Assembly (NCBI RefSeq): GCF_027257175.1
Contig: NZ_JAPFGD010000002.1
Span: forward strand, 62,001-126,000
Direction of reading: 5' to 3'
Length of the DNA: 64,000 bases
Origin: Castellaniella sp. S9
GTDB lineage: Bacteria; Pseudomonadota; Gammaproteobacteria; Burkholderiales; Burkholderiaceae_B
In this document: positions 11,726-33,828 of the stretch, piece after piece
How the letters are laid out: each line of letters begins with the position of its first letter
How positions within the stretch are numbered: the first letter of the stretch is position 1
Program-made: the position numbers and the translations under genes
The notes under the pieces: model-generated
Seen by the model: only the letters and a program-made list of their open reading frames with translations
What the model was told of the DNA's origin: nothing
Database searches by the model: none

Positions 11726-11799
11726 GCGGGTGTAGTTCAATGGTAGAACGGCGGCTTCCCAAGCCTCAAGCGTGGGTTCGATTCCCATCACCCGCTCCA
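11726..11799 (+). tRNA. tRNA-Gly (anticodon CCC)
   Basis: A full cloverleaf can be drawn: acceptor GCGGGTG / CACCCGC, D arm GTTC / GAAC, anticodon loop TTCCCAA with anticodon CCC at positions 34-36, T arm GTGGG / CCCAT, and encoded CCA at 11797-11799 (74 nt). It decodes GGG. The anticodon stem GCGGC / GCCTC has a C-U mismatch at positions 28-42, unusual for a glycine tRNA. The gene is the integration site of the downstream element: its 3' end abuts the ICE integrase region, the standard arrangement for PFGI-1/clc-type elements. Confidence 0.95.
11782..11799 (+). other. Candidate attL (3' end of tRNA-Gly)
   Basis: ICEclc-type integrases recombine at the last 18 bp of a tRNA-Gly gene. The last 18 bases of this tRNA are taken as the attL core by analogy. 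The matching attR repeat must lie beyond base 64,000 and cannot be checked here, so the exact core length is inferred. Confidence 0.5.
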
Positions 11800-11924
11800 C
11801 GTCAACATTCCACGGTGTTCCGTCAATGGCCATTAGGTTCTATAAGTCATTGATTGTTGGGAAGTTATTCTAATCTGGATGTTCCACTGACATCCATGGA
11901 AAGCTCCCTACAGCGCCTCTGAAT

Positions 11925-15374: not shown

Positions 15375-15491
15375 GCGCTGCCAGCTTGTATCTGCAGTCT
15401 CCGAAACTGCATTTGCAATGTACTTCCACACCCGTTTCGATTGAATAGAGGTTACGCCAACAAGCGCTACCAAGCGTTAAGGAGTGACCCT

Positions 15492-15704
15492 ATGTCGCAG
15501 ACACCTGCCTTGCCCCCGGGCGAACGCCGCATTTTACGACGCGAAGAAGTTGAAGCCAAAACGGGCTTTAAGCGCGCCCATATCTACAACCTGATGAAGA
15601 AAGGCCAGTTTCCGAAGGCCTTGCGCCTCGGGGTGCGCGCGGTCGGCTGGGATTCAGTTGAAATCGACCAGTGGATCACCGAACGCCTCGATAACCGGGC
15701 GTAA
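15492..15704 (+). CDS. AlpA family transcriptional regulator
   Basis: Small DNA-binding protein of the AlpA/MerR-like excisionase superfamily. The 70-residue sequence has the expected layout: 'ILRREEVEAKTGFKRAHIYNLM' region as helix-turn-helix, then 'KGQFPKALRLG' wing and 'AVGWDSVEIDQWI'. In P4 AlpA drives integrase expression, and in clc-type ICEs an AlpA-like gene starts the regulatory operon ahead of parA. ATG 15492 is preceded by AAGGAGTGACCC. It sits 40 bases before parA, so the two are probably co-transcribed. Confidence 0.9.
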   Translation: MSQTPALPPGERRILRREEVEAKTGFKRAHIYNLMKKGQFPKALRLGVRAVGWDSVEIDQWITERLDNRA

Positions 15705-15744
15705 CCGCTCTCCCTCACATTTTCACACCCACACGGAGAGCGCC

Positions 15745-16623
15745 ATGCAGGTTGTATCCATCATTTCTACCAAAGGCGGCGTGGGAAAGACAACCACCGC
15801 CGCCAACCTGGGCGGGTTCGTCGCCGATGCGGGCCTGCGCGTGCTGCTGCTTGATTTTGACATCCAGCCCACGCTGTCGTCCTATTACGAGCTGGCACAT
15901 CGTGCCGCCGGTGGCACCTACGAGCTGCTCGCCTTCAACGAGCAGCGTATCGAGCAGTTGGTGTCTCGCACCGTTATCGCTGGTCTGGACTTGGTGGTGT
16001 CCAACGATGACCGGGGCGAACTGAACACACTATTGCTGCATGCGGCCGATGGACGCTTACGGCTGCGCCATCTATTACCGGTGCTGGCGCCGCTCTATGA
16101 CCTGGTGCTCATCGATACGCAGGGCGCGCGCAGTGTGATGCTGGAGATGGCCGTGCTCGCTTCCGACTTAGCGCTGTCGCCGGTTACCCCCGAAATCCTG
16201 GCCGCACGCGAATTACGGCGCGGGACCATACAGTTGATTGAGGATATCGCGCCGTATCGGCACCTGGGCATTGAGCCGCCGCCTTTGCAGCTGCTCATCA
16301 ACCGGGTACATCCTGTGTCGTCAAACGCCCGTCTGATCCAGCAGGCGCTTCGCGATTTATTCCAGGGACAAGTTGGCCTTCGTGTGCTGGGCACGGACGT
16401 GCCTGCCATCGAAGCCTATCCCCGCGCCGCGACACGGGGCCTGCCCGTGCATCGCATCGAATACCGACAGCCGACAGGTCGCGTGGCACCCGCCGCACTT
16501 GAGACCATGCGATCGCTTGCCATTGAACTTTTTCCGTTGTGGAAAGAGCCTTTGGCCCGCGTCTCGGGCCGCCCGCAGCACCCGCATCAACCAGGGAGCG
16601 CACGCCATGGCCAACGCGCATGA
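15745..16623 (+). CDS. parA: ParA family ATPase
   Basis: Deviant Walker ATPase for partition or positional control of the excised element, working with the ParB-like protein encoded 240 bases downstream. The 292-residue product has the deviant Walker A 'KGGVGKT' (residues 10-16), the A' motif 'LLLDFDIQPTLSSYY' with D-x-QPT, and 'LVLIDTQGARS' as Walker B. ATG 15745 has GGAGAG eight bases before it. The C-terminus overlaps the start of the HicA-like gene by 17 bases in another frame, which is common in this operon. Confidence 0.92.
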   Translation: MQVVSIISTKGGVGKTTTAANLGGFVADAGLRVLLLDFDIQPTLSSYYELAHRAAGGTYELLAFNEQRIEQLVSRTVIAGLDLVVSNDDRGELNTLLLHAADGRLRLRHLLPVLAPLYDLVLIDTQGARSVMLEMAVLASDLALSPVTPEILAARELRRGTIQLIEDIAPYRHLGIEPPPLQLLINRVHPVSSNARLIQQALRDLFQGQVGLRVLGTDVPAIEAYPRAATRGLPVHRIEYRQPTGRVAPAALETMRSLAIELFPLWKEPLARVSGRPQHPHQPGSARHGQRA

Positions 16624-16867
16624 GTTAGCACGTGGCCATAAGCGGCTGCGTGCTCTGATTGATTTTGCCATTGCTGAAGGCTGGCACGTGAAGCGAACAT
16701 CAGGCGGCCATCTCAAATTCACTAAGGCGGGATACGCGCCGATCTACACCAGCACGACGGCAAGCGACCATCGAGCCAGTCTCAATGCGCAGGCCCAGAT
16801 TCGGCGCGCTGGCCGGCAATGCCGCCCAATCCTTGAAAACCTTCAGCGGGGGACAGGCCATGGCTGA
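16607..16867 (+). CDS. HicA-like small protein between parA and parB
   Basis: An 86-residue protein with a double-stranded-RNA-binding-like fold similar to HicA toxins: 'LIDFAIAEGWHVKRTSGGHLKFTK' region with the central 'GGH' motif (His is catalytic in HicA mRNA interferases), then 'PIYTSTTASDHRASLN' where HicA has 'vPxHxgxeLk'. No HicB antitoxin is encoded nearby; instead parA overlaps it upstream and parB overlaps it by 8 bases downstream. ATG 16607 follows AGGGAG. It may be a repurposed HicA fold rather than a toxin. Confidence 0.75.
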   Translation: MANAHELARGHKRLRALIDFAIAEGWHVKRTSGGHLKFTKAGYAPIYTSTTASDHRASLNAQAQIRRAGRQCRPILENLQRGTGHG

Positions 16868-18512
16868 CATAACTTCCCAGGATATGGCAACCAAGTTGCT
16901 GGCCGCGGGCTTTGAGCGCAACAGCTCCTCTGCCTCTGCATTGAGCGACCCGATCGCCGATACCCCCATGATCGTCACTTTGGATCAGCTGCGTCCCTAT
17001 GATCACGATCCGCGCATGAAGCGCAATTCCGCGTACGATGAGATCAAGGCCTCTATTCGAGAACGTGGGCTGGACGCATCCCCCGCCATTACCCGGCGAC
17101 TGGGCGCAGAGCACTACATCATCCGCAACGGTGGTAATACCCGCTTGGCGATTCTGCGCGAACTGTGGTCAGAAACCAAGGACGAACGTTTTTTCCGCAT
17201 TTCTTGCCTGTTTCGGCCTTGGCCAGAGCGGGGCGAGATCATCGCCTTGACGGGACACCTAGCCGAAAACGAGTTGCGCGGTGGCCTGACGTTTATCGAG
17301 CGCGCGCTCGGTGTGGAAAAAGCTCGCGAGTTCTACGAACAGGAAAGTGGCACAGCGCTGAACCAATCCGAACTTGCGCGCCGCCTGGCCGCCGACGGTT
17401 ATCCCGTGCAGCAATCCCACATCAGCCGCATGTCCGATGCTGTACGCTATCTGCTGCCGGCCATCCCGACCGTGCTTTATGCCGGACTGGGCCGTCACCA
17501 GATCGAGCGGCTTGCCGTCATGCGCAAGTCCTGTGAGCGTATCTGGGAGCCGCATACAAAAGGCAGGGCGGTATCACTGGATTTTGAGAGTTTCTTTCAG
17601 GACGTGCTGACCCAATTCGATACGCAGGTGGAGGAGTTTTCCTGGCAACGCGTGCAGGACGAGTTGATTGGACAAATGTCTGACCTGCTGGGTGTGGACT
17701 ATGACGTTTTGAGCCTGGATCTGAATGACTCAAACAGTCGTCAGCGCGCCTTGGCGAGCGAGCCAACACCCGAAGGTTCGCTTACGACATTATCCGTACC
17801 CACGGCAGCGCCGTCCTCGACTGTTGAAACACCGCCCACGGTCTCTGCGCCACTCAGTGCGCCGCCTGTCAGCCCACCTGCGGTGAATTCGCCGCCTCGC
17901 GAAGCCATCGTGGGTGCTAACGACGCTAACACCGATGGTATCGATGACTCCGAGCGTCTGCGGGAACATATCATCTCGACAGCTCCCACGACCGAACGGC
18001 TGCAGTCTATTCAGCGCATGGTGGCCGACCAGTTGGGGGATGCGATACCGCCCGAATTTGCGGCCAACGTGCTGCAATCCATTCCTGTGCAAGCCGGTGG
18101 GTTGTATCCGATTTCGGATGTCTGGTACATCGACACGGGGTTGGACGCACCCGATCGGCTGCGAATCCACATTGAACAATTCGCACGAGAAATCGCCGAC
18201 GAGGCGGGCGTGGCTGACTGTGTGCAGGCGAGCTGCGATGGTATCGGGTTCCGTTGCGCTGAATGGCAGGAAAGCATGCCAGTAGCAGCACGTGCCGTCA
18301 CGCACTTGTTGAGGGCACTAAGCGGTCAGCCTATCGCTGTGCCAGAGCCTGACGATGAGCGTCTGGCTGCCCACTTGCCGGTGCTGCTACACGGTAATGG
18401 CCAGCAGGCGCCCGGTTTGAGCGATACCGCCTTGGTCAAGTTATTTCGCTTGCTGCGCCTGGCAAGACGCCTGGTGGAGCTTGACCTCAATAGACCCCAT
18501 CGCGGTGCGTGA
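16860..18512 (+). CDS. parB: ParB family protein (PFGI-1 ICE type)
   Basis: ParB/Srx-type nuclease-fold partition protein, the partner of ParA. The 550-residue product is longer than chromosomal ParB (about 300 aa), as in the ICE-specific PFGI-1 ParB family. The N-terminal domain has 'IVTLDQLRPYDHDPR' and the CTPase-like 'RNGGNTRLAILREL'. A middle helix-turn-helix region around 'NQSELARRLAADGYPVQQS' would bind DNA. A Pro/Ser/Thr-rich linker (about 300-365) leads to a C-terminal domain of about 180 residues. A parS-like sequence lies downstream at 20304-20319. Confidence 0.9.
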   Translation: MADITSQDMATKLLAAGFERNSSSASALSDPIADTPMIVTLDQLRPYDHDPRMKRNSAYDEIKASIRERGLDASPAITRRLGAEHYIIRNGGNTRLAILRELWSETKDERFFRISCLFRPWPERGEIIALTGHLAENELRGGLTFIERALGVEKAREFYEQESGTALNQSELARRLAADGYPVQQSHISRMSDAVRYLLPAIPTVLYAGLGRHQIERLAVMRKSCERIWEPHTKGRAVSLDFESFFQDVLTQFDTQVEEFSWQRVQDELIGQMSDLLGVDYDVLSLDLNDSNSRQRALASEPTPEGSLTTLSVPTAAPSSTVETPPTVSAPLSAPPVSPPAVNSPPREAIVGANDANTDGIDDSERLREHIISTAPTTERLQSIQRMVADQLGDAIPPEFAANVLQSIPVQAGGLYPISDVWYIDTGLDAPDRLRIHIEQFAREIADEAGVADCVQASCDGIGFRCAEWQESMPVAARAVTHLLRALSGQPIAVPEPDDERLAAHLPVLLHGNGQQAPGLSDTALVKLFRLLRLARRLVELDLNRPHRGA

Positions 18513-18527
18513 GAGAGGAGGATCGTC

Positions 18528-19088
18528 ATGTCCACACCACACCCTTTGAATCAGGCCGTTATTGCCCAGGCGCTGTACGATCTGCGCAACGGCCAGCTGC
18601 GCCGCTGTAAGGCGATGGGGTTCGGTGAGGAAGAGCTTAACGCGCTCAAGCGTCCCGAACTGATTAGCGTGCTCCTGAATGCTTCCGTGTCGTGGTGCTC
18701 TGTGTCGATCAATCGCGACGTGGTCAAGCGGTTGCTGCAACAGGCTCAGGACGCGGAAAAAGAGATCGCTTTCGTGGATCGCATGCTCCGGCTTGGTGCC
18801 AGCACAGAAATGGTCGGTCGCTTCTACGGTTTGACGCATCAGGAGGTCGCTCTGCGGCGCGACATTTTGGGATTACCCAAACGCAAGGGGCGCCACCCCG
18901 TGCTGGATGAAGAGCAGGATACGGCGCTCTGGAAGCAGTGGAGGGTGTTTGCAGAGGCCAGAAGCATTGCGTGTGATGATGACGCCGCCATGTTGGAGGC
19001 CGCCATGGACTTGGCCGAAGACATGGCGCTGCCGCTATCCGTGGTCTGGTCAGCAATCAAGGGCTGGGTTGACCAAGGGTTGGGCTAG
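18528..19088 (+). CDS. DUF2857 domain-containing protein
   Basis: A 186-residue protein of the DUF2857 family, found in the maintenance operon of PFGI-1/SPI-7-type elements between parB and the STY4528-type gene, as here. It has a central predicted helix-turn-helix ('LGASTEMVGRFYGLTHQEVA'), so DNA binding is likely, perhaps in a FlhC-like manner: in ICEclc, DUF2857-type proteins have been implicated in transfer activation (established knowledge recalled, not shown here). ATG 18528 with GAGAGGAGG upstream. Confidence 0.85.
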   Translation: MSTPHPLNQAVIAQALYDLRNGQLRRCKAMGFGEEELNALKRPELISVLLNASVSWCSVSINRDVVKRLLQQAQDAEKEIAFVDRMLRLGASTEMVGRFYGLTHQEVALRRDILGLPKRKGRHPVLDEEQDTALWKQWRVFAEARSIACDDDAAMLEAAMDLAEDMALPLSVVWSAIKGWVDQGLG

Positions 19089-19091
19089 GTC

Positions 19092-20267
19092 GTGGCGGAC
19101 CATGAAGCGAGTCGGCACGATGGCCCCGTCTTGCTGTCCAACCTGTTGGACGGTGCGCTGACGGAACTTTCTTCCGAGCAGGAGCAGAACCCAGCGAGCG
19201 ATGGGTTTCTCTATAGCGGTAATCGGCACGAGAGCGTTCCGCGCCGGCTTTTTCTCGATAGACGATTGACACCGTTGGAGCGCAACGCCTGGCAAGTCTT
19301 CCGGCTGCTGCTCAATGATGACGGTGTCACGGCATTTCCCACCTACGAGCAATTGCGACCCTGGCTTGCCTCGATGCCGTGCGGGGCTCAAGCCTCGCAT
19401 GAGACCGTGGCGCGCGCACTGACCTTGTTGCGTCTGACGCGCTGGCTCAGTCTGGTGCGCCGTCGGCGCGACCCCAAAACGGGTCGTATTCAGGGCAATC
19501 TCTATGTGCTGCACGACGAACCGTTGACGCCGTTTGAAGCCATGCAGCTTGACCCGGATTATCTGGAGCTGGTCAGTCAGTCTCTGAGCCACTCGGCCAA
19601 GGCCGTTCAGATCGTCGGCCTGAATACGTTGCAGGAAATTGCCGATGACCCCTTGTTGCAGGGGCGCACGTTGCCCTCTCGTTTGTACGTGCTCGCGCAA
19701 CGCCTGCAGCAGGACGCGCCAGACAAGAGTTATCCACAGGAGGGGGGGCGCCACGAATCCGAAGAAGGCGGCTCGGGCTTACTTCGGAATGTCGAAGCCC
19801 CGTCTTCGGAATCCGAAGCAGGGGTGAAACCCGCGTCAAACGGCACTCTTCCGAATCCGAAGCGGGACCGTACAGTACGTGAGGTAAGTATTAAAGAAGT
19901 ACGTACGGCTGAGCCCGTTCGCGGGGCACAGAATTTACGCTTGCCCCAACGTTTTGGGCAATTAAAGCAAGAGCAGCAGGCGGGCACCTTGGTCGCGCTA
20001 CGCCAGGTGGATGAGTCCCTACGCCAGGCGGTGCTCGACGAGTGGGCGGCGCGTTGCAATAACCAGGTGGTGCGTAATCCTGCCGGCTATCTGTTTGGCA
20101 TCATTCAACGCGCGATCAGTGGGGACTTCAAACCCTGGGCAGGAAAGTCGAAAGGCCCGGCACCCACTAAAGCACCTACATCCGAATCAGCGCCGCGCGA
20201 AGTGGTGCCGCCCGAAGTTGCTCTGGAACATCTCAATCGATTGCGTGAATTGGTGAATAAGGACTGA
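19092..20267 (+). CDS. STY4528 family pathogenicity island replication protein
   Basis: Putative replication initiator of SPI-7/PFGI-1-type elements. The 391-residue product has a winged-helix domain in its first half ('TPLERNAWQVFRLLLNDDGV' and 'ASHETVARALTLLRLTRW'), a variable basic/Ser-rich middle and a C-terminal region with 'NQVVRNPAGYLFGIIQRA', a helical motif shared with other island replication proteins. It starts at GTG 19092, three bases after the DUF2857 stop, so it is coupled. The middle section is less conserved and slightly AT-richer than the ends. Confidence 0.85.
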   Translation: MADHEASRHDGPVLLSNLLDGALTELSSEQEQNPASDGFLYSGNRHESVPRRLFLDRRLTPLERNAWQVFRLLLNDDGVTAFPTYEQLRPWLASMPCGAQASHETVARALTLLRLTRWLSLVRRRRDPKTGRIQGNLYVLHDEPLTPFEAMQLDPDYLELVSQSLSHSAKAVQIVGLNTLQEIADDPLLQGRTLPSRLYVLAQRLQQDAPDKSYPQEGGRHESEEGGSGLLRNVEAPSSESEAGVKPASNGTLPNPKRDRTVREVSIKEVRTAEPVRGAQNLRLPQRFGQLKQEQQAGTLVALRQVDESLRQAVLDEWAARCNNQVVRNPAGYLFGIIQRAISGDFKPWAGKSKGPAPTKAPTSESAPREVVPPEVALEHLNRLRELVNKD

Positions 20268-20319: not shown

Positions 20320-20338
20320 CCATCGCGTGTTGAGGATC

Positions 20339-20378
20339 GGAACACCATGGACGTTCTTGGAGCTATCCCCTGGGGATA
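20339..20378 (-). repeat. Conserved element copy 1 (palindrome plus block)
   Basis: On the minus strand this reads TATCCCCAGGGGATA (20364-20378), a perfect odd-length palindrome, followed by GCTCCAAGAACGTCCATGG and TGTTCC. The same palindrome and block occur at 22347-22388 and 24274-24316 in the opposite orientation. Here it sits 119 bases before the PFL_4669 start, so it may be an operator for that operon. Confidence 0.7.
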
Positions 20379-20496
20379 ATTCGCTGGCCAGTGCGGCCAC
20401 GGCGAAACTGGGATAAGCGCGTATCCATTTCTTGACTGACTGCCTTCTGGCTCATGCCGATGATGGTGCCTTACCCATTCACGACGAGTCGTCACT

Positions 20497-21297
20497 ATGT
20501 CCAACGAACGAAATTCCTCCGAGTCCTTGCAGTTGAACCTCGGGTCTCTGCGCAGCGCCATGTCGCTCACGCTGCACACGCACCACGCCTCACGCATCTG
20601 GCACGGGCGTGCGCCCGCCGAAGGTAAGCCGGCGATCGTCGGCCTAAACGGTTTTGTGTCGATTATGAACAAGCTCAAACGTGGCGCGGAGCAAGACGAT
20701 CCGTATTCCGACTGGTGGATGCTGCGCATTGAAGACAAGCTCGAGCAAACCAAGACCACGCTTCAAACCCTGGGCGAGCAGGTCGATCAGGCCCTGACTA
20801 ACGTGCCATCGGCGCTGAGCCTTGGGGAGAACCTGAACGTGCAGCCCGTTAAGCTGCCGCTCTTCGTTAATGCCCAATTAGGGTTTGCCGCCGTCTATCT
20901 ACTGGCCGATTACGATGAGATCGCGCGCAAACTTATCCTGGCGCATCACACAGCACTGATCGATCGCCGCACACTGGAGCGCTGGCTAAATGAGGGTGCG
21001 CACGCACTGCGCAGCCTGTTCAGTCTGGCGCAGCAATACCGCTACTCGGGTACGCAGCGCGACGATTTTGCCGCCAAGAATGCCGCCGCGCGAGCCGCCA
21101 TCGAGAAGTTCGGCGAATTGCCCGAGGATGTGCTGGAAGGTACGAGGCGCTCACGCTTTGCGCCACCGATCGTGCGCCGGGGCCAGCCGCTGAGTAGCCA
21201 TGTCGAGCCCGATGCGAGCGATACGCCGTCTGTCGCATCAGATGCTTCGCCCGACACGTTTGAGCCTGTTGCCACCGACGAGGACGAATCGGCATGA
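20497..21297 (+). CDS. PFL_4669 family integrating conjugative element protein
   Basis: ICE core protein of the PFL_4669/TIGR03761 family, 266 aa, function unknown. It starts with 'LNLGSLRSAMSLTLHTHHAS' and has 'WHGRAPAEGKPAIVGLNGF', both typical for the family, and an acidic disordered tail. It heads a three-gene run with DUF3158 and ssb, and its TGA overlaps the DUF3158 ATG. Location next to ssb and topB suggests a role in DNA processing or replication of the excised element. Confidence 0.9.
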   Translation: MSNERNSSESLQLNLGSLRSAMSLTLHTHHASRIWHGRAPAEGKPAIVGLNGFVSIMNKLKRGAEQDDPYSDWWMLRIEDKLEQTKTTLQTLGEQVDQALTNVPSALSLGENLNVQPVKLPLFVNAQLGFAAVYLLADYDEIARKLILAHHTALIDRRTLERWLNEGAHALRSLFSLAQQYRYSGTQRDDFAAKNAAARAAIEKFGELPEDVLEGTRRSRFAPPIVRRGQPLSSHVEPDASDTPSVASDASPDTFEPVATDEDESA

Positions 21298-21827
21298 GCG
21301 ATCACCACGATAGCGCACGCCGCCACTTCCAGGCGTTGCAACAGACGGACTTCCTGCGGCTGGAACACGCGGCCTATCTAAAAGGCCTTTTAAAACCTTT
21401 TAAAGGTAAGGGGGCTTTGGAGGATTGGGCCAACCAGTGCTTTGCACTACGCGACGACATGATAGGCCTGGCGCAGCGGCGGGTCCTGCCACAGACGAGC
21501 GGCTATCCCTTTCACCTGCTGGATGTGGAACTGGCCCAACAAAACACTGGCGCAGGCACGACCTTTTTGCGCTGGCGCAAGCATGATCGTTCGGCCATGG
21601 GCGTGGCGTTGTGGCAGGCGCTGATGGCCAGCGCCGCCACGCCAGTCACGATGCTCGATGACCTGCATGCCATCGAGCAGCAGCGCATTGTGCTGAACAT
21701 GCAGATCAGTCTTTTGCACACGCTCGGGCGCCAGGCTCGGGAATGCGCCAACAAGTTGGCTCAGGCCGAAGACGTTTATCTGCGCCGGCTGCGATCTATG
21801 TCTGAGACAGACCGCGATCAGCGGTAA
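21294..21827 (+). CDS. DUF3158 family protein
   Basis: A 177-residue ICE core protein of the DUF3158 family, unknown function. The sequence is helical, with 'FLRLEHAAYLKGLLKPFKGK' near the start and 'TFLRWRKHDRSAMGV' in the middle, both conserved in ICE homologues. Its ATG overlaps the stop of the PFL_4669 gene by four bases, and ssb follows after 51 bases, so the three probably act together. Confidence 0.88.
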   Translation: MSDHHDSARRHFQALQQTDFLRLEHAAYLKGLLKPFKGKGALEDWANQCFALRDDMIGLAQRRVLPQTSGYPFHLLDVELAQQNTGAGTTFLRWRKHDRSAMGVALWQALMASAATPVTMLDDLHAIEQQRIVLNMQISLLHTLGRQARECANKLAQAEDVYLRRLRSMSETDRDQR

Positions 21828-21878
21828 TCCCAACCGCCTGCGCCGGAGCAGGCACCCCAAGCATCAGGAGATTGATCT

Positions 21879-22280
21879 ATGAGTACGCATTTTTTCGGTG
21901 AAGGCAACATCGGTTCAGCCCCGGAGTATCGTGAGTTTCCCAACGGCAACGACGAACCTAGTCGGCTGCTGCGCCTTAACGTTTATTTTGACAATCCTGT
22001 GCCAAAGAAGGATGGCACCTTTGAGGACCGCGGTGGTTTCTGGGCTCCTGTCGAGCTGTGGCATCGCGATGCCGAGAGCTGGGCCAGCCTGTACCAGAAG
22101 GGCATGCGTGTGTTGGTGGAGGGGCGTACTGTTCGGGACGAATGGGAGGACGCCCAGGAAAACGAGCGCGTGACTTTCAAAATCGAAGCACGGCGCGTGG
22201 GCATTTTGCCGTTTCGGCTGGAGGCGATCAAAGTCAGCGCCAAGTCCGTCAGTGCCGAATCAGCGGCTGAGGACGAATAA
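21879..22280 (+). CDS. ssb: Single-stranded DNA-binding protein (ICE-encoded)
   Basis: Element-encoded SSB of 133 aa with an OB fold: 'GEGNIGSAPEYREFPNGN', 'FWAPVELWHRD' and 'GMRVLVEGRTVRDEW'. The usual acidic C-terminal tail for protein recruitment is present as 'ESAAEDE', though it lacks the final DDDIPF of E. coli SSB. In this ICE family SSB protects single-stranded DNA during transfer and transient replication. A strong intrinsic terminator follows at 22293-22328, so this is the last gene of the PFL_4669 operon. Confidence 0.92.
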   Translation: MSTHFFGEGNIGSAPEYREFPNGNDEPSRLLRLNVYFDNPVPKKDGTFEDRGGFWAPVELWHRDAESWASLYQKGMRVLVEGRTVRDEWEDAQENERVTFKIEARRVGILPFRLEAIKVSAKSVSAESAAEDE

Positions 22281-22292
22281 CTTATTTTGTGT

Positions 22293-22328
22293 GGAGCAGC
22301 GGCATGTCGATGTTGCTGCTCCTTTTTT
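22293..22328 (+). terminator. Intrinsic terminator after ssb
   Basis: Perfect 8-bp stem GGAGCAGC (22293-22300) / GCTGCTCC (22315-22322) with a 14-base loop, followed directly by six T residues (22323-22328). It closes the PFL_4669-DUF3158-ssb operon. Confidence 0.85.
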
Positions 22329-22346
22329 AACGTCGGGCGATACACC

Positions 22347-22388
22347 TATCCCCAGGGGATAGCTCCACTGACGTCCACTGTGTTCCAC
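22347..22388 (+). repeat. Conserved element copy 2 (palindrome plus block)
   Basis: Palindrome TATCCCCAGGGGATA (22347-22361) joined to GCTCCACTGACGTCCACTG and TGTTCCAC (to 22388). It is nearly identical over about 42 bases to copy 3 at 24274-24316. It lies between the ssb terminator and the gene at 22509, so it is placed to control that gene or to mark a recombination point. Confidence 0.75.
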
Positions 22389-22508
22389 GCTTTCCCTGCA
22401 GTATTTCTGCTGTCTCGACTATTGCTATTACGTCGGCACTACGTGATCACTCGTTACACTGTGCGTAGAGCCTTTACGACGGGCATTAGACTCAAGGAGA
22501 TTCACAGC

Positions 22509-23288
22509 ATGATTGGATTGAGGACGCGGCATTCCTTTGCGCAGTTTCTGGAATTACAGGAGCCCGCTGTTTCGATAGTGCTGTTGGGCAAGTATGGTGT
22601 TGCACACCTTTCATTGACTTCGTCCCAACTGCTGTCCCAGTTGAACAATATCGCACGAGGCCTGGACGATCGGACCATCATGTTGGTACTGAGTGAGGTG
22701 GTGAGCACTGCAGGGGATTTGCGCGCGCGGGTCAATCCGAAGTATCGATTTGACGAGCGTATGCACGATCTGACGCAGTGCCTATTGCTAGACGGTTATG
22801 CCATTGAAAGCAAGAAGCTGATTCAGACAGATCCTTCGGTTGGCGAGGCAGCACCGGTGGAAGATGACCTAGTTGAGGCGCTACGTAATTGCACTGCCCC
22901 TCAGCGCGAAGATATTATCTCGAAAATTAACGATTCGGCTCAAGCGTTCCGTGCGACGCCTCCTGATTTCAACGCCGCGTTGGTAAACGCACGTGTCGCG
23001 CTTGAAACTTTGGCTGTAGATGTTGCCGCTGATGTGGCCTATTATTTCCCCAATCCGGCACCCTATGACCCAGCCAAATGGGGCAGTGTGATCGAGTTTT
23101 TACGCAAGTGCGATGAAATTACTCTGGAAGAGGAACGCGGGTTGGCAGGTGTATTTGGGTTCTTGAGTCCCGGCGCTCATAGACCTGTGGGCATATCTCA
23201 GGATCAAATGACGCGCCTGGGCCGATCATTCGCTCTTAATATGTGCTGGTTCTTACTTAAGAACCGTCTGGCCAAGCGTCCAGGTTAG
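22509..23288 (+). CDS. Hypothetical protein with a HEPN/Abi-C-like C-terminal region
   Basis: Product of 259 aa, not a known ICE core gene; it lies in the variable slot between ssb and topB. The C-terminal third ('FNAALVNARVALETLAVDVA' and 'FLSPGAHRPVG', then a final helix 'GRSFALNMCWFLLKN') resembles helical HEPN/Abi-C-type domains of abortive-infection proteins, but I do not see a clear R-x4-6-H catalytic motif. ATG 22509 has AAGGAG at good spacing; the frame is open upstream without a ribosome site. A defence role is a guess. Confidence 0.7.
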   Translation: MIGLRTRHSFAQFLELQEPAVSIVLLGKYGVAHLSLTSSQLLSQLNNIARGLDDRTIMLVLSEVVSTAGDLRARVNPKYRFDERMHDLTQCLLLDGYAIESKKLIQTDPSVGEAAPVEDDLVEALRNCTAPQREDIISKINDSAQAFRATPPDFNAALVNARVALETLAVDVAADVAYYFPNPAPYDPAKWGSVIEFLRKCDEITLEEERGLAGVFGFLSPGAHRPVGISQDQMTRLGRSFALNMCWFLLKNRLAKRPG

Positions 23289-23352
23289 GCAGTCGGCTTG
23301 TTGGTTCGATTGGGGCATCGTCGCCCAGCAAGCGACGATGCCGAGTCTCGAC

Positions 23353-24069
23353 TTAGGGTTTCAAGGATTGCTGATACGCGAAATACGCCTGTTCGTCCTC
23401 GTAATCTTGATCCCGCCAACTGTCATCGGCAGATGCGCCCGCGCCGCCTTCCTGGAATACTAGGCCGGCACGTCCGGCCTTTTGATAGACCAGCCATCCA
23501 CTGCATTTGAGCGTGTCCCCATTGAACATGCGATCGCCATTCGGATCGTACTCTCCTATCATTTCGCCGTCGGATTGGATTTTCCATTCATTGACAGCAG
23601 TCCAAAGATCCTCGGTGGGCGGGCATTCGATGCTGAGCTCGGGTTCATCAACGAAGCTAGCATTGCTTTCCGCCATCGAGATCGCTACGTCCTCGTCCTC
23701 ATAAATTGTTTCCGCTAGAGCCTGGCGTCCGTAGGTGTCGTAGAAGTCGGATATATCATCGCATACCTGGGCGTGGGTGATGGCGCCTTTTAGGGCGGCT
23801 ACGCAGTGCGCGACAACCTGCACGCTCGCCTGTTGGTTCAGGGTTGCAGCACGCTCGATTCCCATTGGCTGATTAAGCACAATGAACTCCGCGTCGTCTA
23901 AATGGTAGTTCAGACCCGGATCTAGCTCTTCGGCGGTTAAAGCGGCGAGGGTGCGGTAGCCGAGTAATGCGGCGATGATTTCAGAGAGGTGTGAGCGCTT
24001 GGCAGATAACCCTTGCGCGGCGAGGGATTTTGATGCTGCGTAAGCGGCAGGGGCTAGAAAGGTAGCCAT
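23353..24069 (-). CDS. Hypothetical protein with glyoxalase-related N-terminal domain
   Basis: A 238-residue protein on the minus strand, opposite to its neighbours. The N-terminus ('SLAAQGLSAKRSHLSEIIAA' then 'LLGYRTLAAL') matches the short helical domain (glyoxalase-related) found at the start of many plasmid proteins of unknown function. The rest is acidic with no enzymatic motif that I recognise. ATG 24069 has GGAG 13 bases upstream; GTG at 24084 is an alternative. It shares the ssb-topB variable slot with the gene at 22509. Confidence 0.7.
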   Translation of the reverse strand: MATFLAPAAYAASKSLAAQGLSAKRSHLSEIIAALLGYRTLAALTAEELDPGLNYHLDDAEFIVLNQPMGIERAATLNQQASVQVVAHCVAALKGAITHAQVCDDISDFYDTYGRQALAETIYEDEDVAISMAESNASFVDEPELSIECPPTEDLWTAVNEWKIQSDGEMIGEYDPNGDRMFNGDTLKCSGWLVYQKAGRAGLVFQEGGAGASADDSWRDQDYEDEQAYFAYQQSLKP

Positions 24070-24247
24070 GTCGGAATACTCCACGTCTGTTCGGGCGCTG
24101 GACGTTTTGTCGCGATCGAACAGCCGGTATCCCGGATCGTTGAAAGCGAAGTAATGTTTTAGGATGGAGCGAGGTTACCTGTTTTAAGTCGACCAGAACT
24201 TAGGCGGGTGCCGGTTGTGATCATAGTCCTAAGCATGCGAATGAGCA

Positions 24248-24316
24248 ATATCCCCTGGACATATCCCCTGGACATATCCCCTGGGGGTAGCGCCACTGAC
24301 GTCCACTGTGTTCCAC
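24248..24316 (+). repeat. Conserved element copy 3 with 13-bp tandem repeats
   Basis: Three tandem 13-mers: ATATCCCCTGGAC (24248-24260 and 24261-24273) and ATATCCCCTGGGG (24274-24286). The last runs into GTAGCGCCACTGACGTCCA and CTGTGTTCCAC (to 24316), the same block as copy 2. Together they lie about 180 bases ahead of topB. The repeats look like protein-binding iterons built on the TATCCCC half-site. The rest of 24070-24495 has no gene I can support. Confidence 0.75.
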
Positions 24317-24495
24317 GCGCCTCCCGATCTGGACGCAACTGTTCCAGACCCTCCCGATTCGGCCTGATCCTTTCGCGCGTCGGTGAGCACGCCGTTAAAG
24401 CGCTTGCACCATGTCCAACTTGTTTACTGCCCGAATCTGACGCTGCGTCCATGCTGTCTCCATTGGCAGTATCAACGAGATCCGGATGGAACAGC

Positions 24496-26511
24496 ATGAG
24501 GCTATTTCTGTGCGAGAAGCCCTCGCAGGGCAAAGATATTGGCAAAGTGCTCGGTGCCACGCAGCGCGACAACGGTTGCCTCAAAGGCCCAGGCGTCATC
24601 GTGACCTGGTGCATCGGCCACTTGGTCGAGGCGGCACCGCCCGAAGCCTATGACGAGCAGCTTAAACGCTGGTCGATTGAGCAGTTGCCCATTATTCCCC
24701 AGCATTGGCGTGTCGAAGTCAAACCCAAGACCGCCACGCAATTCAAAGTCGTCAAGCAGTTGCTGGCACAAGCTACCGAATTAGTGATCGCCACCGATGC
24801 TGATCGCGAAGGCGAACTGATCGCCCGCGAAATCGTTGATCTGTGTGGCTATCAAGGACCTATTCAGCGCCTGTGGCTGTCCGCCTTGAACGATGCGTCG
24901 ATTAGCAAGGCATTGGCCGCTCTGAAACCGTCTTCTGAGACGCTGCCCATGTACCATTCGGCCTTGGCGCGCTCCCGTGCTGACTGGCTGGTGGGCATGA
25001 ATCTGAGCCGCCTTTTCACCCTGCTGGGTCGGCAGGCCGGCTACGATGGTGTGCTGTCCGTGGGCCGGGTGCAAACACCCACGCTTAAACTCGTCGTGGA
25101 TCGTGACCGGGAAATTTCCCGGTTTGTTTCCATCCCGTTCTGGGCCATCGATGTGGCGCTCTCTGCTACAGGGCAATCTTTCATCGCGCAGTGGCTGGCC
25201 CCCGAAGCCTGCACCGACGAGGTGGGCAGGTGTTTGCAGGAGCCCGTAGCGCAGCAGGCGGCGCAGCAATTACGTGCAAACGGTGCCGCCCAGGTCGTGT
25301 CCGTCGAAACCGAGCGAATGCGCGAAGGTCCGCCACTGCCGTTTGATCTGGGCACACTACAGGAAATCTGTTCCAAGCAATTGGTCTTGGATGTGCAGGA
25401 AACCCTGGACATTGCTCAAGCCTTGTACGAAACGCACAAGGCCACCACTTATCCACGCTCGGATTCGGGTTACTTGCCCGAGAGCATGCTGGCCGATGTG
25501 CCAGCCGTGCTTGACAGCATGCTCAAAACCGATTCCACGTTACAGCCTGTCATGGGGCAGCTTGATCGCACACAGCGCTCGCGTGCATGGAACGACAGTA
25601 AGGTAACGGCTCACCATGGCATCATCCCCACGCTGGAACCCGCGAACTTGTCAGCCATGAGTGAAAAAGAGCTGGCCGTCTACCGACTGATCCGTGCGCA
25701 CTACCTGGCGCAGTTTCTACCCCATCACGAGTTTGACCGCACCATTGCGCGGTTTTCATGCACAGGCGAACATCTTCAAGCCGTAGGCAAGCAGATCGTC
25801 ATCCCAGGATGGCGGTTGGTGCTGGCCGAGCAGCAACCGGAGGATGCCGACGATGACACCGCCCCGCGCAGTCAAGTGCTGCCCGCACTTAAGCAAGGCC
25901 TGTCCTGCCAGGTGACCAACGTCGATCTTAAGGTGCTAAAGACGCTGCCTCCCCGCTATTACACGCAAGGCGAGCTGGTCAAGGCTATGAAAAGCGTCGC
26001 GAAGCTTGTGTCCGATCCACGCCTGAAGCAGAAACTGAAGGACACGGTGGGTATCGGCACCGAGGCGACTCGCGCCAATATTATTAACGGCTTGCTGACA
26101 CGTGGCTATCTGCTCAAGAAAGGCCGGGCAGTCCGCGCATCGGAGGCGGCCGGCACACTCATTGATGCCGTGCCTACAGCGATTGTCGATCCCGGCACCA
26201 CGGCGGTTTGGGAGCAAGCGCTGGATATGATCGAGGCGGGCCAGCTTACCCATGAGGTCTTCATCGACAAGCAGTCGGCCTGGATTGCGCAGATCATCGC
26301 CCAATACCAGGGCACCGCCTTATCAATCAAGGTGCCCCAAGGCCCGCCGTGCCCGCTGTGTATGTCGGCCATGCGCCAACGCACCGGCAAGAACGGTCCT
26401 TTTTGGTCATGTTCGCGCTATCCCGATTGCAAAGGCACGTTGCCGGTTGAATCGGCCAACGCCAAGCGCAGTGTGCCGCGTAAGCGCCGCAGCGCACCCA
26501 AGGCATCCTAA
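24496..26511 (+). CDS. topB: DNA topoisomerase III (ICE-encoded)
   Basis: Type IA topoisomerase of 671 aa, a conserved member of SPI-7/PFGI-1 elements. It has the Toprim domain ('FLCEKPSQGKDIGKVLG' and 'IATDADREGELIAREI'), the active-site tyrosine Tyr319 in 'TTYPRSDSGYL', and a C-terminal zinc finger ('CPLCMSAMRQRTGKNGPFW' then 'CSRYPDC'). The ATG at 24496 is chosen because the protein begins at 'MRLFLCEKPSQ' in the family; the frame is open for 96 codons upstream through the repeat region, which is not coding. It probably resolves replication or transfer intermediates. Confidence 0.95.
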   Translation: MRLFLCEKPSQGKDIGKVLGATQRDNGCLKGPGVIVTWCIGHLVEAAPPEAYDEQLKRWSIEQLPIIPQHWRVEVKPKTATQFKVVKQLLAQATELVIATDADREGELIAREIVDLCGYQGPIQRLWLSALNDASISKALAALKPSSETLPMYHSALARSRADWLVGMNLSRLFTLLGRQAGYDGVLSVGRVQTPTLKLVVDRDREISRFVSIPFWAIDVALSATGQSFIAQWLAPEACTDEVGRCLQEPVAQQAAQQLRANGAAQVVSVETERMREGPPLPFDLGTLQEICSKQLVLDVQETLDIAQALYETHKATTYPRSDSGYLPESMLADVPAVLDSMLKTDSTLQPVMGQLDRTQRSRAWNDSKVTAHHGIIPTLEPANLSAMSEKELAVYRLIRAHYLAQFLPHHEFDRTIARFSCTGEHLQAVGKQIVIPGWRLVLAEQQPEDADDDTAPRSQVLPALKQGLSCQVTNVDLKVLKTLPPRYYTQGELVKAMKSVAKLVSDPRLKQKLKDTVGIGTEATRANIINGLLTRGYLLKKGRAVRASEAAGTLIDAVPTAIVDPGTTAVWEQALDMIEAGQLTHEVFIDKQSAWIAQIIAQYQGTALSIKVPQGPPCPLCMSAMRQRTGKNGPFWSCSRYPDCKGTLPVESANAKRSVPRKRRSAPKAS

Positions 26512-33742: not shown

Positions 33743-33828
33743 GCGAACACACAGTTCGCTGGCTGACCTCATCTCCGGACGATCATCGTCCATTCCACCC
33801 CCACGGGATCTTTCATCCCCTGGGGATG
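33743..33828 (+). ncRNA. Divergent structured leader before the 33858 gene
   Basis: This region has GCGAAC-acaca-GTTCGC (33743-33759), an alternative GTTCG (33754-33758) / CGGAC (33776-33780) stem resembling P2 of the four leader RNAs, GGACGAT-c-ATCGTCC (33777-33791) and the palindrome CATCCCC-T-GGGGATG (33814-33828). The P2-like loop has CTCATC and GATGAG lies downstream (33825-33830), so a pseudoknot with changed but matching bases is conceivable. It does not align cleanly with the other four copies. Confidence 0.35.

Follow-up and report, generated by a model that had tools for sequence, protein, structure and literature searches.

A palindrome with a TCCA block in an ICEclc-type element of Castellaniella sp. 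S9 as a probable loading site of the ParB-family protein BisD

Palindromes and TCCA blocks of the window

The window analysed here, 64,000 nucleotides of Castellaniella sp. S9 (contig NZ_JAPFGD010000002.1, positions 62,001 to 126,000), holds the left part of an integrative and conjugative element (ICE) of the ICEclc type. The element starts at the 3' end of a tRNA-Gly (11726-11799) and carries int, an AlpA-like gene (our reading of the open reading frame (ORF) at 15441), the genes for ParA, BisD, BisC, STY4528 and PFL_4669/InrR, ssb, and topB (Table 1). The palindrome CTATCCCCWGGGGATAG, joined by a TCCA-N6-TCCA-N6-TCCA block, is found ahead of PFL_4669 (inrR), behind ssb, and ahead of topB. 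These are the three places named in an original prediction made from the sequence; the core TATCCCCWGGGGATA is exact at 20364-20378 and 22347-22361, and the copy ahead of topB has a single mismatch. With up to three mismatches allowed, the window holds 7 matches to this core compared to 1.66 expected, a number reached in 0 of 100 shuffles. Two additional 13-bp partial repeats, which touch the degenerate third site, look like slippage products. A variant palindrome at 33814 (CATCCCCTGGGGATG), listed together with the others in the original prediction, was rejected as a fourth site. It is a different, poorly kept inverted repeat; the region is 89-90% identical in all three of three close relatives, and the 15-mer is not kept there, as read from the alignment.

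The block consists of three TCCA boxes at a spacing of 10 bp, which are helically phased on one face of the helix and span 24 bp. Its predicted conservation beside the palindromes was borne out by a profile built from the blocks of 33 relatives, which scored 35.6, 30.0 and 15.7 at the three copies and reached maxima of 4.7-12.3 in 20 shuffled windows. Triplet matches of 11 or 12 out of 12 letters number four in the window, and each belongs to one of the three copies; 60 shuffles gave 0.48 on average and never more than 2. At site 1 the block lies on the far side of the palindrome from inrR, and at sites 2 and 3 it lies toward topB. The inrR-DUF3158-ssb operon is flanked in this way by sites with outward-pointing blocks, and the orientation with respect to the downstream genes is not uniform.

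Conservation in relatives and co-variation with BisD

The palindrome was followed through the best 80 of 425 confirmed InrR relatives, obtained from a scan of genome contigs and amounting to 1.507 Mb (loci and genomes are referred to by L and G numbers). The exact core occurs 160 times in these loci, compared to 0.002 occurrences expected by composition, and is present in 62 of the 80. All occurrences lie within -3,992 to +3,356 of inrR, mostly at about -140 and at 46-76 bp past the ssb stop. The remaining 18 loci have variant palindromes, most of them altered in both arms (CTATACCC/GGGTATAG, CTATACCA/TGGTATAG, CGGTCCCC/GGGGACCG). When sites of any class are counted, 79 loci have one to three ahead of inrR (two in 40, one in 24, three in 15), and the lone exception, L108, offers just 76 bp of upstream DNA. 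Absence from the same positions in relatives had been named as an observation that would speak against the original prediction; these positions are occupied. As the letter filter for the variants was picked after they had been seen, a neutral, filter-free test was also used. A perfect 8+1+8 palindrome lies within 600 bp ahead of inrR in 73 of 78 near and 25 of 31 far loci, and within the first 600 bp of the inrR gene, taken as control, in 9 of 78 and 1 of 31. The site in the ssb-topB gap is present in most of the window's lineage and absent in all 10 ACCC loci (e.g. Pectobacterium L052, L057).

Among 399 Burkholderiales genomes the 17-mer was found in 8, all of which belong to the 9 genomes with an ICEclc-type InrR (E < 1e-85), and the reversed pattern had 0 matches in the same genomes. 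The ninth, G219, has a variant site instead. Hence, among these genomes the 17-mer is confined to those with an ICEclc-type ICE, and it is the element's own site. In the Castellaniella genome, sites with at most one mismatch fall in its two ICEs; as none lie elsewhere, a host regulator was ruled out as reader. The second ICEclc-type ICE lies on another contig (G000 contig C33, ~88,583) and has the same site class, so cross-activation between the co-resident elements is possible. Near-copies of the ICE region, with InrR 95-100% identical, occur in Paenalcaligenes (L033), Pollutimonas (L034) and Nitrosomonas eutropha (L035).

Palindromes at this place extend to relatives whose BisD is 32-44% identical (BLAST). 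Of 20 distant loci in which inrR is readable, 15 carry a perfect 17-bp palindrome of their own within 600 bp ahead of it, compared to 0.9% expected by chance. At least ten half-sites are represented, and some of these loci are near-copies of each other. L122 has four copies of TGATGGCASTGCCATCA and L128 three of TTATTACAGTGTAATAA, while pKLC102 (L147) has nine of TGGTGCCACTGGCACCA in 57-bp steps, ~0.6-1.1 kb ahead of PFL_4669. In Serratia pE36_1 (L151) an array with mostly 36-bp steps and gaps of 72 lies upstream of the PFL_4669 counterpart, and three inverted repeats of 17 bp, each centred on three bases, are present in ICEHin1056.

The TCCA triplet shows a distribution of its own. The 80 loci contain 132 matches of 11 or 12 letters, compared to 3 to 7 in three shuffling rounds, and 70 perfect triplets, compared to 0 or 1 after shuffling. 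Seventy-four of the 132 lie within 60 bp of a palindrome, and the others lie ahead of int or some 6.4-7.4 kb ahead of inrR. Pieces of the block had also been predicted beside the integrase gene. In the window they are weak, with 10 of 12 letters at best, a level that shuffled windows reach 4.5 times on average. Sixteen relatives were listed with an int start, and in 14 of these, several being near-copies, the region upstream of int holds a full triplet (11 or 12 of 12 letters); L037, one of the other two, could not be read, and a further six relatives were passed over. The boxes of ACCC loci also adjoin the palindrome, but run in the opposite direction, which indicates that block and palindrome are separate modules. 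As the triplet also occurs ahead of int in relatives, where it has no palindrome, it is probably an activator or promoter element with a reader other than BisD (BisC, InrR or another). TCCA-like repeats are still found in the ssb-topB gap of L057 and L060, where the palindrome is missing.

To identify the protein that changes together with the site, fixed residue differences between site classes were compared over eight proteins (ParA, BisD, BisC, STY4528, InrR, DUF3158, SSB and TopB). Between CGG and CCCC loci there are 7 in BisD, 2 in STY4528 and 1 in InrR (P 0.001 for the share of BisD), and none in ParA, BisC, DUF3158, SSB or TopB. Four of the seven BisD differences (Q210R, S214T, K248T, E251K) fall within residues 194-258, modelled as the helix-turn-helix (HTH) and the next helix (one-sided P 0.005), and so do 8 of the 24 fixed BisD differences of the ACCC loci (P 0.004). 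Residues 210/211/214 read QSS in 53 of 53 CCCC loci, QPS in 13 of 13 loci of the TATACC type, and RST in 8 of 8 CGG loci, with 0 exceptions in the 74 alignable loci. At residue 245 every CCCC or CGG locus has V, and the 13 others have S, G or A, and residue 248 has a single exception in each of two groups (L101, L107). Thirteen additional ICEclc-type BisD proteins, none of them used for finding these residues, were then checked, including those of the second ICE of the same genome, a Pseudomonas veronii plasmid, and Tistrella mobilis pTM3. For 11 of the 13 (QSHIS/V245 or RSHIT/V245) the expected CTATCCCC or CGGTCCCC site is present; in pTM3, R210/T214/T248/K251 are paired with a CGGTCCCC site.

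Mutual-information columns and raw class columns are strongly confounded by descent, and we therefore relied on fixed differences, partial correlations and a tree. The correlation sample comprised 31 loci with 16 half-sites (15 loci from the 80 and 16 from 38 far or named ones), duplicates and loci without a clear site being left out. Over these loci, site distance correlates with BisD HTH distance with a rho of 0.72. A partial correlation of 0.29 (0.66 in the ICEclc type, 0.35 in distant loci) stays after control for the N and C parts of BisD, BisC, InrR and both halves of STY4528. Values near zero were obtained for BisC (0.03), InrR (-0.05) and the N part of BisD (0.01), and the C half of STY4528, with the BisD HTH controlled, gave 0.11 over all loci, 0.04 in the ICEclc type and -0.21 in distant loci. 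Generally, the box sequence co-varies with the DNA-binding domain of BisD; the exceptions are L146 and the ssb-topB copy of CGG loci, and the independent events are few.

Conservation, fixed place, confinement to the ICE, matched change of both arms, and co-variation with the BisD HTH together favour BisD as the reader. The element also combines two features of a loading-site system, a ParB-family BisD of its own (with a DUF2857 partner, BisC) and a dyad-symmetric box confined to the element. A protein site, rather than an RNA hairpin or terminator, is suggested by the odd centre of one base and by the way the site co-varies with the HTH. We consider it probable that the palindrome is a bisS/parS-like loading site of BisD, and that the TCCA block is an accompanying activator element. 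The common regulator envisaged in the original prediction is thus well supported, and is likely BisD, the ParB-family protein among the candidates named at the time.

Table 1. Positions of the sites, genes and repeats in the window.
Feature	Position	Strand	Remarks
Weak TCCA repeats between the left attachment site (attL) and int	11796-11911	+	full triplets here in relatives
ParA-type ATPase gene	15658-16623		adjoins the ParB-family bisD gene, ParA beside ParB as in parABS
bisD-like ParB-family gene	16785-18512	+	proposed palindrome reader; TIGR03764, E 1e-118
bisD codons 194-258	17364-17558	+	modelled HTH and next helix, with residues 210, 211, 214, 245, 248, 251
bisC-like gene	18528-19088	+	DUF2857
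STY4528-family gene	19092-20267	+	NCBIfam name, replication protein
Separate palindrome CTTCGGAATCCGAAG inside the STY4528 gene	19804-19818	.	not read as a BisD site
TCCA triplet block of site 1	20338-20361	-	11/12 letters; directed away from inrR
Palindromic site 1	20363-20379	-	CTATCCCCTGGGGATAA on +; starts 134 bp ahead of inrR
inrR / PFL_4669	20497-21297	+	TIGR03761, Pfam AcaB
Gene at DUF3158 position	21294-21827	+	name from annotated homologues; no NCBIfam match of its own
ssb	21879-22280	+	
Palindromic site 2	22346-22362	+	CTATCCCCAGGGGATAG; 65 bp past the ssb stop
Left copy of 44-bp direct repeat	22347-22390	+	44/44 identical to the single copy in the empty slot of L033
TCCA triplet block of site 2	22364-22387	+	12/12 letters
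Cargo gene 1	22509-23288	+	no family match; homologue in the same slot of L034
Cargo gene 2	23353-24084	-	no family match
Two 13-bp partial repeats	24249-24274	+	TATCCCCTGGACA; touching degenerate site 3
Palindromic site 3	24275-24289	+	TATCCCCTGGGGGTA; one mismatch; ahead of topB
Right copy of 44-bp direct repeat	24275-24318	+	3 differences from L033
TCCA triplet block of site 3	24292-24315	+	11/12 letters
topB	24496-26511	+	start codon read from sequence

Competing explanations of the sites

Several observations weigh against BisD as the reader, or limit how far the co-variation carries. The BisC+InrR tree requires just 4 changes of site class, with CGG forming one clade (99/97), and the TATACC-like sites may be one ancestral state. 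Two independent gains of the latter, which had been considered, were not borne out, as the tree permits a single ancestral state; the sample of independent events is accordingly small. Across the deep split between ACCC and CCCC loci, fixed differences occur in 19 of 186 columns of BisC, 24 of 556 of BisD, 14 of 391 of STY4528 and 9 of 250 of InrR, and are densest in BisC. Over the 31 loci, STY4528 has a partial correlation of 0.26 before mutual control with the BisD HTH. Its third quarter reaches the same raw rho of 0.72 as the HTH, which does not hold within either subset, and its columns 301 and 342 are likewise split by site class. Small partials are also retained by BisD residues 260-320 (0.18) and the C part (0.13). 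L146 (in G219) has a QSHIS helix, yet its site is the 18-bp CTATACCAGCTGGTATAG, present ahead of inrR as seven even-centred palindromes with both centre and arms altered. Just residue 245 and its neighbours fit, A245 going together with CTATACCA, which counts against a code resting on residues 210-214 alone. All 7 CGG loci whose ssb-topB gap is readable retain CTATCCCC or TTATCCCC there, with one arm letter altered in 2 of the 7. This gap site does not follow BisD; either BisD tolerates both sites, or the gap copy has another role. L121 has a QSHIS BisD, and neither inrR nor a site lies within the stretch retrieved. Five of the 20 distant loci have no perfect 17-mer ahead of inrR, and the palindromes inside inrR in the near loci indicate that such a sequence also arises by chance.

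BisD belongs by sequence to the ParB family, and its model matches ParB, Noc, SopB, KorB and VirB (Z 6.0-7.1, over about residues 165-303). The model is poor (mean predicted local distance difference test (pLDDT) score 49.6), and these matches, with Z about 7, are tied with sigma-factor HTHs. The InrR model has a mean pLDDT of 44, and its fold is not readable from it. Searches of PDB sequences with BisD and InrR returned nothing useful. The binding of BisD to the palindrome is what we infer from the sequence comparison.

Other readers were weighed against BisD. If the palindromes were iterons of an origin of replication (oriV) of the ICE, the adjacent STY4528-family protein would be the reader. 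This protein bears the name of a replication protein and is encoded next to the sites, and without mutual control it correlates with them. In passages of the respective papers, the putative oriV of PFGI-1 is placed directly upstream of PFL_4669 from palindromic repeats (PMC2647930), and that of ICEHin1056 in the replication module from iteron-like repeats (PMC2258188). Against this stands that the sites do not track the replication protein independently of BisD: the STY4528 signal shrinks when the BisD HTH is controlled, and the BisD signal stays. With the gene order bisD-bisC-sty4528-sites-inrR, linkage could explain the signal of STY4528, but not that of BisD, which skips BisC. A better iteron candidate than the 17-mer is a second palindrome, TTCGG-N2-3-CCGAA (mostly CTTCGGAATCCGAAG), inside the STY4528 gene, with 120 copies in 71 of the 80 loci, once or twice per locus and 44 bp apart in the displayed two-copy loci. 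As it occurs in two reading frames, it does not reflect a motif of the protein. The putative oriV of PFGI-1 holds a 23-bp palindrome with the same TTCGG core, and a passage of the same paper has PFGI-1 encode no Rep (PMC2647930). The TTCGG-CCGAA palindromes are likely the replication iterons, and an oriV role of the 17-mers is unlikely. A conventional operator for some other regulator of the ICE (AlpA, BisC, InrR or a repressor) would agree with the palindromes ahead of the inrR and topB units, with the many fixed ACCC-CCCC differences in BisC, and with the dependence on InrR of the tested bimodal ICEclc promoters save PbisR, as stated in part of PMC9286271. We find it very unlikely, as BisC and InrR show no independent co-variation over the 31 loci, BisC has no differences between CGG and CCCC loci, and the varying orientation of the block between classes means that the palindrome is not part of one rigid promoter. 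The two origins of transfer (oriT) of ICEclc carry a common repeat motif, and the palindrome could be part of such an origin, with the relaxase as reader. Excerpts of published work describe oriT1 and oriT2 on ICEclc, the former also important for replication of the excised ICE (PMC6561031), and an ICE activation that is distance-dependent from the origin of transfer (PMC13098234, citing the BisD paper), so that bisS and oriT may be neighbours. A perfectly symmetric, multi-copy site tracked by an HTH resembles the operator of a dimeric protein more than a nic site, and we regard an oriT role as very unlikely.

The original prediction had offered, as an alternative to a regulator, a recombination site used for swapping cargo in the ssb-topB slot. 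Its observation that copies 2 and 3 are direct repeats bracketing both cargo genes holds. In Paenalcaligenes niemegkensis (L033), whose InrR is identical, the slot is empty and 290 bp long. Bases 7-110 of this empty slot match one end of the slot in the window and bases 67-290 the other; the overlap of these alignments means that 44 bp are duplicated in the window. One-copy empty slots are found in L033, with a right flank 97% identical, and L035. In L034 and L058, too, the cargo starts at the site or just past it, and in nine loci the sites ahead of inrR are far apart, with ORFs in between. Of the 74 slots that were read (the window and 73 of the 80 loci; 450 bp or more counted as filled), nine are filled, and two sites are present in only one of these, that of the window. 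The boundaries of other cargo do not coincide with the site in this way: in L109 the cargo is on its other side, and the slots of L057 and L060 contain cargo but no palindrome. The filled slot of L047 is a partial topB repeat with an N and probably an assembly artefact. Neither cargo ORF of the window matched a family in Pfam or PADLOC, and with this no recombinase was found associated with the cargo. Co-variation with a ParB HTH is not expected of a recombination site, and intergenic DNA is permissive for insertions anyway. The swap idea is thus weakly supported by the duplication and the empty slots, and we judge such a site to be a very slim prospect; the 44-bp duplication has the look of a single occurrence at a repeated site, and the arrival of the cargo, by which these 44 bp were duplicated, is read as secondary.

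A homologue search for the cargo in the 399 genomes returned the own gene only, plus weak fragments in one genome. Defence-like cargo is present in relatives, namely DUF4917/PDC-S21 in L034 and an MkoC-like helicase in L101. What appears to be a second cargo slot, with ORF stretches of about 1-4 kb between palindromes ahead of inrR, was seen in L043, L049, L053, L070, L071, L081, L097, L100 and L101; the proteins searched from it include PLD-like, OST-HTH and MkoC-like ones.

Proposed role of the sites and comparison with known systems

If BisD is the reader, a BisD dimer would bind the palindrome through its HTH. By analogy with ICEclc, it may load there as a clamp and then spread over the element, and the spread BisD would co-activate the transfer genes together with BisC and InrR. 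Loading would take place at sites flanking the inrR-DUF3158-ssb operon, one to three ahead of inrR and mostly one between ssb and topB, and the TCCA boxes may be the seat of an activator partner. For clamp loading, sliding and its direction, this picture borrows from the ICEclc work.

More tentatively, we propose that ICEs of the PFL_4669/BisD superfamily possess a self-addressed, ParB-like activation, in which the 17-bp site and the reader helix diverged together (CTATCCCC, CTATACCC, CGGTCCCC, TGGTGCCA, TGATGGCA, TTATTACA and others). BisD residues 210, 211, 214, 245, 248 and 251 would set the address, and the divergence would insulate co-resident ICEs. The palindromes of the putative oriV of PFGI-1, ICEHin1056 and pKLC102 would then include loading sites, and the true iterons would be the TTCGG-CCGAA repeats inside the STY4528 gene. 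What is probably new here is the divergence of site and reader throughout the family, together with the new reading of the putative oriV palindromes. Neither the palindromes, in four spellings, nor that of pKLC102 were found in the searchable full texts, with supplements, figures and closed papers outside the search; the TTCGG core was found, in PMC2647930.

Elements of the ICEclc type spread degradation, metal and resistance genes among Proteobacteria, and the transfer switch of ICEclc rests on BisD. Given a BisD address at the sequence level, for which natural variants of both site and protein exist, the loading, the spreading and the cross-talk between ICEs can be put to a direct test. The address further provides a one-line motif for locating the control region in new elements, and separates two kinds of palindrome that the older papers cited here jointly describe as putative oriV.

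The closest known system is that of ICEclc itself, whose bisS boxes and BisD-CTP (cytidine triphosphate) clamp were reportedly described by Antar et al. in 2025, work known through citing papers. According to passages of one of these (PMC13393423), the 'bisS boxes' are where BisD starts to slide, and together with BisC it co-activates promoters of ICEclc. The likeness lies in the ICE family, in a ParB-like BisD, and in boxes that serve sliding and co-activation with BisC, and the sites of the window are most likely members of bisS, likened by description. The present work adds the divergence into site classes, the distant families and the copy between ssb and topB. For the TCCA triplet, a counterpart may be the 27-bp motif that, in part of PMC9286271, is common to 8 of 9 bimodal transfer-competence promoters of ICEclc, PbisR excepted. 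The promoters with this motif include those of int and inrR, ahead of which the 24-bp triplet also lies, while the palindrome was not found at int; the match is by length and place, without comparison of letters, and is suggestive only.

The regular arrays of pKLC102 and Serratia pE36_1 resemble centromeres. In sopC and parS, tandem arrays of palindromes are read by a ParB-family HTH, and ParA is encoded alongside. ICEs of the window's type differ in that they often carry just 1-3 copies, which lie ahead of inrR and in the regulon of the ICE. The putative oriV of PFGI-1, of ICEHin1056 and of pKLC102 share with the window palindromic repeats in the replication module, those of PFGI-1 directly upstream of PFL_4669. 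They were read as an origin with iterons, whereas the data presented here favour BisD as the reader of the palindromes close to inrR.

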